DNA of 32,226 nucleotides from a bacterium. Lineage in GTDB: Bacteria; UBP15; UBA6099. The stretch lies in NCBI GenBank assembly GCA_029564595.1, contig JAKQPS010000113.1, positions 1-32,226 of the forward strand, written 5' to 3'. Position numbers and translations under genes: made by a program. The notes beneath the pieces were generated by a model that saw nothing but the letters and a program-made list of their open reading frames with translations, was not told the origin of the DNA and did no database searches. Below, one piece after another: positions 10,498-16,651 of this stretch (position 1 is the stretch's first letter; each line of letters opens with the position of its first letter).

Positions 10498-11958
10498 TCA
10501 GTCTTTCACTTCGGACAAAGGAATGCACAGAGCGTCCGCCACGCCTTTTCCGTAGTCGGAATCCGCTTTCAGGCAGTTTCCGATGTGGCGAATTTTAATT
10601 TCCTTGGGAGCGTCGCCCATCGCTCGCGCGGTGTTTCCGAAGAGAGCCTGTTTCTGCTCGTCGGACATCAGCCTGAAGAGGAGTCCGGGCTGGCTGTAGT
10701 AATCGTCGTCTTCTCTGTGGTTCCAGTGATCCGCCGCGCCTTCGAGGGAGAGAGGCGGCTCGGAAAAATCAGGCTGCTCCTGCCATTCGCCATAGCTGTT
10801 CGGCTCGTAGCCGAGCAGACTTCCGTAATTGCCGTCAACTCTCATCGAGCCGTCTCGATGAAAACTGTGATACGGACACCGGGAAGCGTTCACTGGAATC
10901 TGATGATGGTTCACTCCGAGGCGGTATCTGTGCGCGTCGCCGTATGAGAACAAGCGCCCCTGCAACATCTTGTCCGGCGAAAAGCCTATTCCCGGAACTA
11001 TGCTTGCCGGGTTGAACGCAGACTGCTCCACTTCCGCGAAATAGTTCTCCGGGTTGCGGTTCAGTTCGAGTTCGCCGACCTCGATCATAGGGTAATCCTT
11101 GTGAAACCATACTTTTGTTAGATCAAACGGGTTGTAAGGGCAGTTCGCCGCTTCCTTCTCCGGCATGACCTGAATGAACATCGTCCATTTCGGGAAATCG
11201 CCTTTTTCAATGCTCTCGTAAAGGTCGCGCTGATGGCTCTCCCTGTCCTTAGCCACAATCGCTTCGGCTTCGGCGTCGGTAATGTTCTTAATCCCCTGTT
11301 TGCTCTTGAGGTGGAACTTCACCCAGAACCTTTCATTCTTCGCATTGATCAAGCTGAAAGTGTGGCTGCCGAAACCGTGCATGTGGCGGTAGGTCGCCGG
11401 AATGCCTCTGTCGCTCATCACGATGGTTACTTGATGCAGGGCTTCTGGCAGAAGCGTCCAGAAATCCCAGTTGTTCTTGGCGCTGCGCAAGTTCGTGCGC
11501 GGGTCTCGTTTCACCGCGTGGTTGAGGTCGGGAAACTTCAGAGGGTCGCGCAGAAAAAACACCGGAGTGTTGTTTCCGACGAGGTCCCAGTTGCCCTCCT
11601 CGGTATAGAACTTGATGGCGAAACCTCTGATGTCTCTTTCGGCGTCCGCCGCGCCTCTCTCGCCGGCGACCGTTGAAAACCTTATGAAAAGGTCGGTCTT
11701 CTTTCCTATCTGCGAAAAAATCTTGGCCTTGGTGTATCCGGCGATGTCGTGGGTTGTCGTGAAGGTTCCGTAAGCGCCCGAACCTTTCGCGTGCATACGC
11801 CGCTCCGGAATAACCTCTCTGTCGAAGTGCGCCAGCTTCTCAAGGAACCACACATCCTGCAAAAGCATCGGTCCTCTTCGGCCTGCGGTCAGCACGTTCT
11901 GATTGTCCGCGACCGGCGCTCCCGTCGTTGTCGTCAACTTCTTTTTCTTATCTTCCAT
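10498..11958 (-). CDS. katA: Monofunctional haem catalase
   Basis: Converts hydrogen peroxide to water and oxygen in the cytoplasm. The length of 486 residues and the motifs fit a small-subunit (clade 3) catalase. The distal histidine is H56 in [14 protein letters not shown], the distal asparagine is in the [11 protein letters not shown] segment near residue 129, and the proximal haem-ligand tyrosine is in [10 protein letters not shown] near residue 339. There is no signal peptide. ATG at 11958 is preceded by AAGGGGAC. The gene stands alone: it converges on the plus-strand acyl-CoA dehydrogenase across a shared terminator, and 261 bases separate it from the radical SAM operon upstream. In that gap I found no confident promoter or PerR/OxyR-type site. 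Its presence shows that the cell meets oxygen or peroxide despite several oxygen-sensitive enzymes nearby. Confidence 0.96.
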
Positions 11959-12219: not shown

Positions 12220-13653
12220 TTAGCGTGTCGAAGGGCCTCGCTCGCGTTTCTTCGGAAATATTATCCTGAACGCTCTCTGAAATATTATTTTCAGTTGTGT
12301 GAATGAATGAATTTCCCGCGCGATTCCCAACATTATCTTAGGTCGCAGATAGAATCTGAAATGCGAATTCCTCTGTAGTTTTATCAAATCTTTTTCCGGG
12401 ATCGAGTCGTCGCAATAACCGAGGTTGTGGATATAAAGCTCGTCGTAATCGAGGTTGTCCAGTTTTCCCGCGACTTTAAGCTCGTCGTAAATCTCGCTGC
12501 CGGGGAATGGGGTGAATGTAAAAAAGTTCACTCTGTTGATGTCGAGTTTCAGAGAAAGATTTATTGTTTCTCGCATCTCTTGAACAGTCTCGCCGGGATA
12601 GCCCAATATAAAAAGCCCAGTGCTTCTTATGCCGTGTTTTTTCAGGATGGCGATTTTTTCGGGGACTTCATTAAGGTTGATCCGTTTTTTCATCAGATTG
12701 AGAACGCGCTGCGAGCCGGACTCTATTCCAAGAGAAGTCGAGTAACAGCCCGCGCGTTTCATCGCAGATATCAGTTCGTCAGAAATGCAGTCGATTCTAA
12801 TGCCGGGAGGACAGCCCCAGACCACATCTGTATTTCTGCGGATAATCGTCTCGCAGACCTTCATGGCGAATTTTGCGTCCGCCGCGAAATTGTCGTCCAT
12901 TATTTGAATCTCGTGGATATCATGATCTTTTTTAAGGAGTGTCATCTCGTCCACAATCGAGTCTGGGTCGCGGTGGCGGAGTTTTTTTCCCATAGCGACG
13001 CCCGCGGCGCAAAATCTGCATGAATAGGGACATCCGCGCGTGGTGATGAGCGGCGCAACTTTGTTTTTTTTCGTGAATATTCCGTTCGGATACAGTGAAA
13101 ACTTTTTGGGATCGTGAAGGTCCCACGCCGGAAGATCAAGCGGGCGGATATCGTCAATAAGTTTGCGTTTCGTCAGCGCCGCGCCCTGCCCGTCTCGGTA
13201 GCAGAGGTTCGGAATCGCGGACAGAGAGGAAGCGTCGGGAGTTTCTTTCTTCTCAAGTTCCGCTAACAACAGAGGGAATGTTTCTTCGCCTTCGCCGGAG
13301 ACGACATAGTCGACATCGGGCATTTTATTGAGGATTTCTTCAGACTCGAAAATAGCGTGAGGCCCGCCCGCGACGATTCTAGCTCTCGGATATTTGCGTC
13401 TTATCTCTTGCGCGTACACTGCCGAAGAATTGAAAAACGGGGTAAATATTGTGATCCCGACCACATCGAAATTGTTCTCTGAGGCTATGTCGGCGACTTT
13501 TTCGGGCTTGATGGAATCTCTGGCGGCGTTGCAGATGAAAGGTTCGTGTCCGGCGCGCCTTAGAGCGGTCGCCAAGTATGCTAGTCCCAGATTGGGAATT
13601 ATCAGATATGTCTCTAGATTCAGCCTTTTTGGATCGACAAGTAATATCTTCAT
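12220..13653 (-). CDS. B12-binding-type radical SAM protein (third gene of the radical SAM operon)
   Basis: A 477-residue protein with an N-terminal cobalamin-binding-like Rossmann domain (residues about 1-140: PNLGLAYLATALRRAGH, VGITIFTPFF, IVAGGPHAIF, DYVVSGEGEETF) and a central radical SAM domain. The 4Fe-4S motif CPYSCRFC places cysteines at 208, 212 and 215. Later landmarks are IQIMDDNFA, SLGIESGSQRVLNLMKK, GLFILGYPGET and FFTFTPFPGSEIYDEL, typical of the BchE/HpnP-like superfamily. Such enzymes methylate, cyclise or rearrange unactivated carbon centres. The C-terminus is basic (KKRERGPSTR), with a preceding amphipathic region. ATG at 13653 lies 21 bases after the previous gene, with only a weak Shine-Dalgarno. 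Substrate unknown; context suggests it acts with the two upstream radical SAM genes. Confidence 0.87.
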   Translation of the reverse strand: MKILLVDPKRLNLETYLIIPNLGLAYLATALRRAGHEPFICNAARDSIKPEKVADIASENNFDVVGITIFTPFFNSSAVYAQEIRRKYPRARIVAGGPHAIFESEEILNKMPDVDYVVSGEGEETFPLLLAELEKKETPDASSLSAIPNLCYRDGQGAALTKRKLIDDIRPLDLPAWDLHDPKKFSLYPNGIFTKKNKVAPLITTRGCPYSCRFCAAGVAMGKKLRHRDPDSIVDEMTLLKKDHDIHEIQIMDDNFAADAKFAMKVCETIIRRNTDVVWGCPPGIRIDCISDELISAMKRAGCYSTSLGIESGSQRVLNLMKKRINLNEVPEKIAILKKHGIRSTGLFILGYPGETVQEMRETINLSLKLDINRVNFFTFTPFPGSEIYDELKVAGKLDNLDYDELYIHNLGYCDDSIPEKDLIKLQRNSHFRFYLRPKIMLGIAREIHSFTQLKIIFQRAFRIIFPKKRERGPSTR

Positions 13654-13674
13654 TAAATAACCCGATGAGCAGTC

Positions 13675-15168
13675 TCAGCCTTTGACGCCCCGCCCTGTGA
13701 AAAATTCCTTCAAATAGAATTTATACCTTTTTGCGTGCTGACGCATCATTATTTCCGCGTCAGGCGATTTCTTCATCAACAGCCTGTACGCGGTGTACGC
13801 GATTCCCGGCAGAAAAGATGTCGGCAGCAACCTGTACAGGCGTTTGTTTATTATCGTTTCAACGAGGCCGCGCGGAAGAACCTGAGTCAGCACATAAAGT
13901 ATGTAGAACTTCCTGTGCAACTTCGGCGAAGCGTTGTCTATCGTTATCGAGCCGACATGCTCTCCGGCGTCGATTTTTTTCAGGTCCGATTCGTTCAGCG
14001 CGCCATGCCTGAGCGCGATGTTAATTATCTCCGTGCCGGGAAAATAGCGCAACCAGAAAACCTTCAGCACATCCGGGCGCGTCTCGTTGTAGAACCGGGC
14101 CATCTCGACCATGTCAGATTCCGATTCCGTCGGGAAATTTGCAATATTCTCCGCTGCGACGAATATCCCTGTTTCCTGCAATAACCGTATAGAGCGACGG
14201 ATTATTTCCGTGGATTCGGTCCGATTGTAAATCTCGCGGCGTTTCTTTTCGTTTATGGTCTGAACGCCGATATCGACTTTTACGCAGCCTGATTCGCGCA
14301 GCAGAGCCGCATGCTCTTCGTCAACCATGTTCGGGTTGGCGCAAGCTATATAGGGCAAGCCTATCCTTTTCTTGTACTCCTGCGCAAACTCGCGCATCCA
14401 TTCTTTCTTCGCGCCGAAAACCTCGTCGTAAAAATTCACGTGTCTGGAGTCGTATGTTTTCACGGCCATGGAAAGCTCTTCAATCACGTTCGCCACGCTT
14501 CTGGTTCTGACGTAGCCTTTCGCGCCGTAAAGTTTTTTCATCAGGTCGTTGTTGCAGAAAGTGCATCTGTACGGACAACCTCTTGAAGCCATGATGGTGT
14601 AGATATCGGAGGCGTTGACAGGAGTGTCGGCGTAAAGTGTTTTATCGGGAAAAGGAAGGGAATCCAAATCCTGAATGAGGGGTCGAAGAGGATTGAGGCG
14701 CGGAACGCCGTCAATATTGACGCAGACATTATCGATATCCGGACGTATGCCGCCGTGTTCGATGGAATCGAGAATGTCCGCAATGACGAGGTCGCCCTCG
14801 CCCCTGACGACAGCGTCGACGCAATCGAGTTTAAGAAACTCTTCCGGGGCGGAAGTGGCGTGGATATTGCCCGCGATGACGCGAGCGCCTGTTTCGGCCT
14901 TAATCAGAGCCGCCATCTCCTTGAACCAAAGGAAATCGCTCGTGACCACCGAAAACGCCACGACGTCAGGCTTAAGCGCGGCGACCTTTTCGACCACTTT
15001 CTTCTTCATCCTGAACAGCCGCGCGAGAGGCCGGATGGTGACGAAAGAATCCTCAAACAGGCAAGGGTCGAAAACCAGCCCCGCCGAATGGCCCTTCGCG
15101 CGAGCCATCGCCGCCAGACTCTCTATTGCAAGGCTCCCGAAAGCAGGATATACGAACGCCACTTTCAT
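13675..15168 (-). CDS. B12-binding-type radical SAM protein (second gene of the radical SAM operon)
   Basis: A 497-residue relative of the neighbouring enzyme. The N-terminal part (about 1-135) has a cobalamin-binding-like fold pattern (LKPDVVAFSVVTSDFLWFKEM, RVIAGNIHATSAPEEFL, DAVVRGEGD). The radical SAM motif CPYRCTFC gives cysteines at 198, 202 and 205, followed by HVNFYDEVFG, VKVDIGVQTINEKKRREIYNR, AAENIANFPTESESDM and VFWLRYFPGTEI. The C-terminal 100 residues contain hydrophobic helices (FYILYVLTQVLPRGL, GIAYTAYRLLM) and basic segments, which could place it at the membrane. Its ATG overlaps the stop of the preceding radical SAM gene in an ATGA arrangement, strong evidence for translational coupling. 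Function unknown; a carbon-carbon bond forming or methylating role on a lipid is an inference from neighbours. Confidence 0.87.
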   Translation of the reverse strand: MKVAFVYPAFGSLAIESLAAMARAKGHSAGLVFDPCLFEDSFVTIRPLARLFRMKKKVVEKVAALKPDVVAFSVVTSDFLWFKEMAALIKAETGARVIAGNIHATSAPEEFLKLDCVDAVVRGEGDLVIADILDSIEHGGIRPDIDNVCVNIDGVPRLNPLRPLIQDLDSLPFPDKTLYADTPVNASDIYTIMASRGCPYRCTFCNNDLMKKLYGAKGYVRTRSVANVIEELSMAVKTYDSRHVNFYDEVFGAKKEWMREFAQEYKKRIGLPYIACANPNMVDEEHAALLRESGCVKVDIGVQTINEKKRREIYNRTESTEIIRRSIRLLQETGIFVAAENIANFPTESESDMVEMARFYNETRPDVLKVFWLRYFPGTEIINIALRHGALNESDLKKIDAGEHVGSITIDNASPKLHRKFYILYVLTQVLPRGLVETIINKRLYRLLPTSFLPGIAYTAYRLLMKKSPDAEIMMRQHAKRYKFYLKEFFTGRGVKG

Positions 15169-16511
15169 TCAGTCTCCGCGCCGCGCGGCGTCCGCGCGTC
15201 CTTCGTGTCGCCCTTCGGCAACCACGACATCTCCCTGTATTTCGTGTTGTAAATGCAAGGAGGTATGTAGCCCTCGTCTGACATGTAAACTTTGTTGCAG
15301 CAATTCGCTTCCGTCAGGTCGATAGTGTCGCGCGCCCTGAACTCCTCTATCGTAAACAGTTTAACCTCGCCTGTCATCTGAATCGCGTCCCAATGGCGAA
15401 GCGAGCCGAAAAGCGCCGCGAGCCTCGCAAGCCCTCCCGCGTTAGCGACTGCCCCTGCCGGATCGAAATACCTGTTCACCGGAATATAATCTTTTCCCCG
15501 TTTGTGAAGAAGCAACATGTGAAAGCATGATTTCTGCTGAAAATCCCTGTTGCCAGTCAACCGAAAAACAATATTGCCGATGGCGCGCGACCGCATGAAA
15601 TCCTTCACGGCAATACGCCCCCGCGTTCCGGCTTCGACGGCTTTCATGACATCCAACGCGGTAGTTGCCCGCTCCGCGCCGAAATTGTCTCTCCCGACCG
15701 ACGACAACACTGTGCATCCAAGATGCATGATATTGTCGTTGCCCATCATGAAATCGACTATCTTGCCGATTTCCCCGTCGTTCACCCCTTTTGCGGCCAT
15801 ACATGCCAGACAGACTTTTATTCCCGCTTTTTCAAGAGAGGCTAAAGCCCTGCGTTTCGTCTCAAGAAGTTCCCTTCCCCTTGTGACTCTGTAAATATCG
15901 TCCGAAAAACCGTCGAACTGCAACAACGCCCAGCCAAGTCCGGCGTCCCGCAGGCTTCTTGCGTATGACTCGTCGGCAAGTTTGATTCCGTTGGTGGCGA
16001 CTTTCACGACGAATCCGAGCGCGGTGATTTTTCTTATAATTTCCGCAAGGTCCGGGCGCAGCGTCGGCTCTCCTCCGCAGATAAGGATAGTGGGCTTGTC
16101 CTTCAATTTTTTGAGTCTTGAGACTATCTCGTCTGCGGAAGGCTCCCTGCTCTTTCGCGAATGAGTGTTTGTGAAACATGCGGGACAATTCAAATCGCAT
16201 CTCTCAGTGACATCGATCATAATTGTCTTTATGCGCCCGAGGTGCCGCTCGCATCCCAGACACCCTTCAATGTCGCATTCGTGAAATTCACGGGGAACGC
16301 CCGATGTTCCGGACAAGCACTTCTTGAAAAAAGCCGGATCGTCGTGAATGACGAACTCGAAACCGCCGTGCGCCGGACATTGTTTGACTTGAATGACGCG
16401 CCCTTCCCGCTCGATTATGCGCGCGGGAATTATGCCTCCGCACTCAGGGCAAAGACTCTTTGTTTCTCTGATGAGTTGTCCGCCGGAGCGATCCGCCAAG
16501 TTCAGCGCCAC
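15165..16511 (-). CDS. Radical SAM protein resembling tetraether lipid synthase (Tes/MJ0619 type)
   Basis: A 448-residue radical SAM enzyme heading a three-gene operon. The N-terminus has a zinc-ribbon or rubredoxin-like site (C21, C24, C44, H47; CPECG and CPAHG), then a second cysteine cluster (HECDIEGCLGCERH). The SAM-binding 4Fe-4S motif is CDLNCPAC with cysteines 105, 109 and 112, followed by ILICGGEPTLRPD. The C-terminal domain adds further cysteines (SCFHML, ANCCNKV, IPPCIYN) that could bind auxiliary clusters. From memory of the family, this layout and the IPxC-x-YN ending match Tes, which joins lipid tails carbon to carbon. Tes itself is somewhat longer, so a relative with another substrate is possible. 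The start is GTG at 16511 with no Shine-Dalgarno. The promoter at 16532-16561 implies a leader of only about 14 bases. Confidence 0.8.
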   Translation of the reverse strand: MALNLADRSGGQLIRETKSLCPECGGIIPARIIEREGRVIQVKQCPAHGGFEFVIHDDPAFFKKCLSGTSGVPREFHECDIEGCLGCERHLGRIKTIMIDVTERCDLNCPACFTNTHSRKSREPSADEIVSRLKKLKDKPTILICGGEPTLRPDLAEIIRKITALGFVVKVATNGIKLADESYARSLRDAGLGWALLQFDGFSDDIYRVTRGRELLETKRRALASLEKAGIKVCLACMAAKGVNDGEIGKIVDFMMGNDNIMHLGCTVLSSVGRDNFGAERATTALDVMKAVEAGTRGRIAVKDFMRSRAIGNIVFRLTGNRDFQQKSCFHMLLLHKRGKDYIPVNRYFDPAGAVANAGGLARLAALFGSLRHWDAIQMTGEVKLFTIEEFRARDTIDLTEANCCNKVYMSDEGYIPPCIYNTKYREMSWLPKGDTKDARTPRGAETE

Positions 16512-16531
16512 ATTTCTAAATTTATAGTTTG

Positions 16532-16561
16532 ATTATAGCAGTATTAAATTTGTTTTGTCGA
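16532..16561 (-). promoter_or_regulatory. Extended -10 sigma-70 promoter of the radical SAM operon
   Basis: On the minus strand TCGACA (16561-16556, five of six matches) is followed by an 18-base spacer and a perfect TATAAT (16537-16532), preceded by TGC as in extended -10 promoters. The predicted start near 16525 lies only about 14 bases before the GTG start, and no Shine-Dalgarno is visible, so translation may be nearly leaderless. Confidence 0.65.
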
Positions 16562-16618: not shown

Positions 16619-16651
16619 AAAAGAGGCCCGCGACAATCGCGAGCCTCTTTT
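16619..16651 (-). terminator. Intrinsic terminator downstream of hcp
   Basis: Fifteen-base arms (16619-16633 and 16637-16651) pair with one mismatch around a three-base loop. The core reads AGAGGCTCGCGA on the minus strand, followed by the T-rich stretch TTTTTCTCTTTTT. It lies 84 bases beyond the hcp stop. The A/T-symmetric arms could let it work on both strands. Confidence 0.85.

Follow-up and report, generated by a model that had tools for sequence, protein, structure and literature searches.

A Tes-fold enzyme that is not Tes, encoded with two B12 radical SAM proteins in an uncultured anaerobic bacterium

What might a bacterium do with a relative of tetraether synthase (Tes) whose gene is followed directly by those of two B12-binding radical S-adenosylmethionine (SAM) enzymes? 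The question is raised by a contig of 32,226 nucleotides (JAKQPS010000113.1; the whole stretch is called the window here) from the 4.4 Mb metagenome-assembled genome (MAG), 97% complete, of an uncultured anaerobe. Three adjoining minus-strand radical SAM open reading frames (ORFs) at 12220-16511 form one operon, to which we refer as the trio. The first protein is a Tes/MJ0619-fold enzyme but not Tes, and what is new is the clade-specific association of its gene with B12 radical SAM genes. The operon looks like an undescribed radical-chemistry module, because other poorly known lineages of bacteria have the pairing too. The three genes are as follows.

15165-16511, minus strand: tes-like gene, 448 amino acids, GTG start; PF04055 and PF23545
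13675-15168, minus strand: b12a gene, 497 amino acids, ATG start, 4-base ATGA overlap with the tes-like gene; PF02310 and PF04055
12220-13653, minus strand: b12b gene, 477 amino acids, ATG start, 21-base gap after b12a; PF02310 and PF04055

All three proteins contain CxxxCxxC and match the Pfam Radical_SAM model with 83-97 bits, against a cut-off of 29.5. Coordinates and Pfam matches agree with a first-pass annotation made from the DNA letters, which had described three same-strand genes with a GTG start, an ATGA overlap, a 21-base gap and this motif in each product. The Cys/His N-terminus that it had pointed out in the first protein proved to be of zinc-ribbon or rubredoxin-like type (PF23545, E 2e-15), the further Cys sites and the IPPCIYN ending were borne out, and the cobalamin-binding-like N-termini of the other two turned out to be true B12-binding domains (PF02310, E 2e-15 and 4e-23).

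Fold, clade and metal sites of the Tes-like protein

A phmmer search of the PDB with the Tes-like protein retrieved MJ0619 (7tol) with an E value of 1.4e-52, with MoaA far behind at 6e-9. Its AlphaFold2 (AF2) model, which had a predicted local distance difference test score (pLDDT) of 86.2 and a predicted template modelling (pTM) score of 0.88, gave the same picture in Foldseek: 7tom was the only full-length match (E 4e-34, TM-score 0.74 over the query), and the runner-up, again MoaA, reached E 4e-10 and a TM-score of 0.38. Family membership is a different matter. Against the Tes model NF045702 the protein scored 197.8 bits and did not reach the equivalog cut-off of 450. This model does recognise bacterial Tes, since five bacterial control proteins scored 548-593 bits. 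The top NCBIfam model was that of TrsS (NF045646), with which the protein shares its N-terminal architecture; the match of 216.2 bits stops at residue 309 and stays below the cut-off of 490.

The trees place the protein outside Tes. With 86 rows, the Tes clade, consisting of MJ0619 and bacterial Tes, was apart from the clade of the window protein. With 40 rows, the Tes clade and the window clade each had a support of 100/99, and a 99/97 split parted Tes and the TrsS-like rows from the window clade and the Omnitrophota rows. Forcing the window protein and those of the genomes G003 and G005 into Tes gave a tree that was 87.6 log units worse (approximately unbiased (AU) test, p 4.7e-8). Score, tree, AU test and the replacement of Met439 described below all reject simple Tes orthology. 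The placement did not come with any known other function.

For the metal sites, we used the assignments in MJ0619 (PMC9433317) and compared them through an alignment of the 7tol sequence with 12 members of the window clade and 6 Tes. By this alignment, residues for all four Tes metallocofactor sites (rubredoxin, N-terminal, radical SAM and C-terminal) are present in the window protein.

16368-16451, minus strand: rubredoxin-like metal site C21-x2-C24...C45-x2-H48, aligned to MJ0619 C9, C12, C33 and H36 (site definition from PMC9433317)
16242-16277, minus strand: N-terminal auxiliary cluster site C79-x4-C84-x2-C87-x2-H90, with C84, C87 and H90 aligned to MJ0619 C77, C80 and H83
16176-16199, minus strand: radical SAM cluster motif C105-x3-C109-x2-C112, invariant in all alignments
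15525-15527, minus strand: Cys329, present in 11 of the 12 clade members and offset by one residue from MJ0619 C338; it presumably provides the first ligand to the C-terminal auxiliary cluster
15345-15347, minus strand: Glu389; all 12 clade members have Glu here, where all 6 Tes have Met439, their labile cluster ligand
15255-15299, minus strand: Cys405...Tyr409...Cys419 (IPPCIYN), the remaining presumed C-terminal cluster ligands and the equivalent of Tyr459; C405 and Y409 in 18 of 18 sequences, C419 in 17 of 18

In the N-terminal site, C79 stands for MJ0619 C73 but is one residue further off, which changes the spacing from C-x3-C-x2-C-x2-H to C-x4-C-x2-C-x2-H; within the window clade, the full set of residues for this cluster occurs only in the window, G003 and G005. 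The exchange at the C-terminal cluster is more telling, as both the labile ligand Met439 and Tyr459 are fully conserved in 1,000 archaeal Tes (PMC9433317). The protein thus keeps the whole fold of Tes/GDGT-MAS, the residues of the rubredoxin, radical SAM and both auxiliary sites, Tyr459 and the YN ending, and to that extent the Tes/MJ0619-like identity proposed in the first-pass annotation holds; it does not extend to the clade, to the equivalog score (198 vs 450 bits), to Met439 or, apparently, to much of the cap.

The loss in the cap is seen between the C-terminal cysteines C329 and C405, where the intervening stretch is some 40 residues shorter than in Tes and AF2 confidence is low (pLDDT 60-78). 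This stretch falls in the region of the helical cap, which in Tes supplies, together with the radical SAM domain, two hydrophobic lipid pockets (PMC11186832, PMC9433317). Judged from the aligned residues, the radical machinery is retained, along with an auxiliary cluster on which an intermediate could be held, but the two-lipid arrangement probably is not. The reduced cap would speak for a single acyl, polyprenyl or glycolipid chain and against a pair of lipids.

These features bear on a reading that the first-pass annotation had put forward, namely a module for membrane-spanning lipids in which the first enzyme joins two bacterial lipid tails like Tes and the joined tails are then methylated or cyclised by its B12 partners. 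The Tes fold and the residues for four metal sites fit this reading, as does the proposal that bacterial Tes homologues make branched glycerol dialkyl glycerol tetraethers (PMC8941075, PMC11868695). The position outside the Tes clade, the clade-wide change of Met439 to Glu and the cap, about 40 residues shorter than the one that helps to form two lipid pockets in Tes, speak against it. Head-to-head coupling of tails is conceivable, yet we prefer another reading, and we regard the module as a whole, read in this way, as improbable.

The B12 partners and their linkage across bacteria

Both partner proteins share the B12-binding plus radical SAM fold with a set of enzymes whose substrates are unrelated to one another. 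For the AF2 model of b12a (pLDDT 85.9), the best Foldseek matches were the methylases MgmA (9ccb) and TsrM and the dehydratase AprD4; identity in structure alignments with MgmA, TsrM, AprD4 and BchE/HpnJ was 17-18%. Against the NCBIfam models of BchE, HpnJ and HpnR, with cut-offs of 481, 578 and 650 bits, b12b scored 201, 145 and 106 bits and b12a 103, 96 and 50 bits, and neither protein reached the cut-off of any NCBIfam equivalog. Pfam found no DUF4070 in either, whereas the hopanoid C-2 methylase HpnP is defined by B12-binding, radical SAM and DUF4070 domains (PMC10697835). The kinship to HpnP and BchE that the first-pass annotation had suggested checking was thus not confirmed. The missing DUF4070 is a further point against coupling of lipid tails followed by methylation or cyclisation.

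Since ApyD and MgmA, B12 radical SAM enzymes of known function, rank high among the family or structure matches, we also considered the maturation of a protein or of a ribosomally synthesised and post-translationally modified peptide (RiPP), or the biosynthesis of a cofactor. Both partners score far below every RiPP family cut-off, and Pfam detects no SPASM domain in the trio proteins. In the gaps flanking the trio we saw no precursor-peptide candidate, no small ORF of note and no transporter, in line with the first-pass annotation, and a RiPP system was rejected on this ground. Altogether, a peptide, protein or cofactor pathway seems quite improbable.

Linkage was surveyed in a sample of 386 genomes drawn across Bacteria, plus Omnitrophota, with a Tes-like gene counted as linked if a B12 radical SAM ORF lay within 1.5 kb. 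In the window clade this was the case for 5 of 6 genes and in the Omnitrophota-type clade for 16 of 29, as against none of 11 Tes genes and 1 of 39 others. The contrast of 5/6 with 1/50 gave a Fisher value of 9e-6, in a table whose rows are not fully independent, G003 and the window being counted separately. That true Tes genes are unlinked to B12 radical SAM genes is again unfavourable to a tail-coupling module.

Close to the window genome the arrangement is well kept. The whole operon recurs in G003 at 96-98% identity, G001 has b12a and b12b up to the contig end, and G005, a member of the same order, retains the tes-like/b12a pair (58% and 65% identity). In other genomes the composition recurs in varying order. 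The order b12a - tes - B12 is found in G607 and on contig C398 of G675, where an assembly gap lies in the tes-like gene, and contig C292 of G675 has B12, B12, tes, tes, b12a, b12b; in both genomes, therefore, tes-like genes share a locus with b12a-type genes and further B12 radical SAM genes. The tes-like gene overlaps b12b on contig C25 of G676, precedes a B12 gene in G473, is broken but accompanied by a B12 gene in G674, and has B12 genes about 2 kb off in G673. Whole-genome searches located the best b12b homologue at the tes-like locus in G675, G676 and G581, and elsewhere in G005, G041, G473 and G607. G607, G473 and G041 belong to one small phylum, with a window-type tes-like gene in 7 of 7 genomes examined.

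These results show that the pairing of Tes-like and B12 radical SAM genes is conserved across lineages, while the trio in its exact form, as a single operon, does not extend beyond the genus of the window. The trio as a universal unit is rejected, since b12b is unlinked in G005 and gene order varies; a search for the same trio elsewhere, proposed in the first-pass annotation, thus found its make-up in other genomes but its single operon in this order within the genus only.

The distinction matters for surveys of bacterial Tes. Hundreds of bacterial homologues are counted as possible makers of the branched tetraethers that serve as climate proxies; the publications present them as candidates that had not been assayed (PMC8941075, PMC11868695). 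Bacteria also have a different enzyme described as coupling lipids, the membrane-spanning lipid synthase Mss (PMC13274423). Met or Glu at position 439, together with cap length, offers a simple sequence mark that parts true Tes from the B12-linked subfamily, which belongs to a recurring genetic module. Surveys that count this subfamily as Tes may over-call tetraether producers.

Candidate substrates and reactions

We propose that the operon serves to tailor a hydrophobic or lipid-linked substrate by anaerobic radical chemistry, a reading for which we judge the case evenly balanced. The overlap or close spacing of the genes and their common promoter match count in its favour. From fold, residues and linkage we infer a shared substrate of lipid or lipid-linked nature, ligation by Glu and the following reactions. 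The Tes-fold enzyme would generate a 5'-deoxyadenosyl radical and use it to abstract hydrogen at an unactivated sp3 carbon in a substrate that is mostly hydrophobic. The product could then be held or quenched on the C-terminal [Fe4S4] cluster, with Glu389 as the predicted labile ligand where Tes has Met439, and the outcome would be cluster-assisted bond formation on one hydrophobic chain. The two B12 proteins, most likely C-methylases or cyclase/dehydratase-type enzymes, would work on this intermediate or on the next one.

The genome content narrows the range of lipids. Neither a hopene cyclase domain nor an archaeal-type PcrB/geranylgeranylglyceryl phosphate (GGGP) synthase was matched in the 97% complete MAG, while control genomes gave matches for both. 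Hopanoids and archaeal isoprenoid lipids are therefore unlikely substrates. Hopanoid methylation or rearrangement was rejected for want of a cyclase match and of DUF4070, and archaeal-type isoprenoid tetraethers as product for want of a GGGP synthase match. Any product of tail coupling would accordingly have to be of a bacterial type, which is compatible with that alternative.

Relatives of the trio in Omnitrophota suggest another kind of substrate. Locus L094 (genome G198) packs three Tes-like and seven B12 radical SAM genes into 20 kb, and more follow at the contig end; L096 (G216), L097 (G213) and L098 (G220) resemble it. Across these loci the Tes-like genes number three to five and the B12 radical SAM genes up to seven or more, within about 20 kb. 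As in the trio, both protein types adjoin, and b12a is about 37% identical; the arrays differ from it in these higher gene numbers, in lacking the N-terminal auxiliary cluster, in another C-terminus and in glycan-type neighbours. These neighbours include DegT aminotransferases, family 2 glycosyltransferases (GT2) and SPASM and UPF0004-type radical SAM genes, with PMT_2 or UbiA in some loci. The DegT, GT2, PMT_2 and UbiA genes suggest lipid-linked sugars or glycolipids. A literature search combining Omnitrophota with radical SAM and cobalamin retrieved no report in the library searched, and the arrays are apparently an undescribed radical SAM assembly line.

The enzymes might then modify the sugar of a polyprenyl-linked glycan or glycolipid, by C-methylation, deoxygenation or epimerisation, and leave lipid tails alone. 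In addition to the DegT, GT2 and flippase-like genes of the Omnitrophota arrays, this is supported by b12a relatives in glycan loci of G654, G519, G030 and G041 (GT2, epimerases, nucleotidyltransferase, PMT-type and polysaccharide deacetylase genes) and by AprD4, a sugar diol-dehydratase whose structure is one of the nearest solved ones to b12a and b12b. On the other hand, no glycosyltransferase or sugar gene was recognised adjoining the window trio or the G005 pair, and the one characterised member of the Tes fold has a hydrophobic channel. We consider sugar tailoring conceivable but on the unlikely side.

Several observations also weigh against a module that tailors a hydrophobic or lipid-linked substrate. 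The trio is flanked by catalase, hydroxylamine reductase, argG and other housekeeping genes, none of which names a substrate, and the glycan-type neighbours stem from b12a relatives and Omnitrophota and not from the clade of the window. The partnership is also looser in places: the b12b orthologue of G005 (66%) lies on another contig, b12b occurs in G006 and G442 without a detected tes-like gene, and the tes-like gene is solitary in G041 and on contig C118 of G676. In addition, the member from G581 (L168:7389-9320) retains the Glu, yet two of its three C-terminal cluster cysteines are gone, which may reflect changed chemistry.

In the most far-reaching reading, the Glu-for-Met variant of the auxiliary cluster with its B12 partners might represent a second type of reaction on the tetraether-synthase scaffold, by which anaerobic bacteria build a lipid or glycolipid, branched, cyclised or cross-linked, that has not yet been described, and Omnitrophota would run the same parts as an expanded assembly line; this reading is tentative, and we would sooner expect it to fail than to hold. 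Should the module make a new lipid, it would offer an origin for orphan membrane lipids and put auxiliary-cluster radical chemistry to a new use.

Flanking sequence and host genome

Two candidate signals lie upstream of the tes-like gene.

16532-16561, minus strand: promoter-like site TCGACA-18-TATAAT with an extended -10, 11 of 12 consensus positions matched, about 20 bases before the GTG of the tes-like gene
16619-16651, between hcp and the trio: hairpin terminator-like site, a single consensus match

The promoter match, likewise a single consensus match, is suggestive only, because the region has 5 such sites against 3.8 expected in shuffled sequences. Position 16561, which the first-pass annotation had set as the end of the operon region, coincides with its -35 hexamer.

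Downstream of b12b, the catalase gene (10498-11958) looks like a recent insertion, because it lies between b12b and an acyl-CoA dehydrogenase gene only in the window genome, whereas in G001 and G003 the acyl-CoA dehydrogenase gene follows b12b directly. The genome is otherwise rich in radical SAM genes and presumably that of an anaerobe.

Radical SAM genes are common in the host, as 91 matches were obtained in its 4.4 Mb, and they cluster on contigs such as C147, C99, C104 and C86. The nearest named relative is 'bacterium ADurb.Bin236', a sister MAG (98% identical protein) that is unclassified in NCBI taxonomy; a divergent SepRS that carries an editing domain of the ThrRS type has been reported from this sister (MWCD01000062.1, L044; PMC5424206). 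In G005 (L048:2016-6536), three paralogues of about 275 amino acids, rich in His, Ser and Asn and ending in HSSW or HASW, are encoded beside a SPASM-type radical SAM gene, possibly as a RiPP or repeat-protein modification system.

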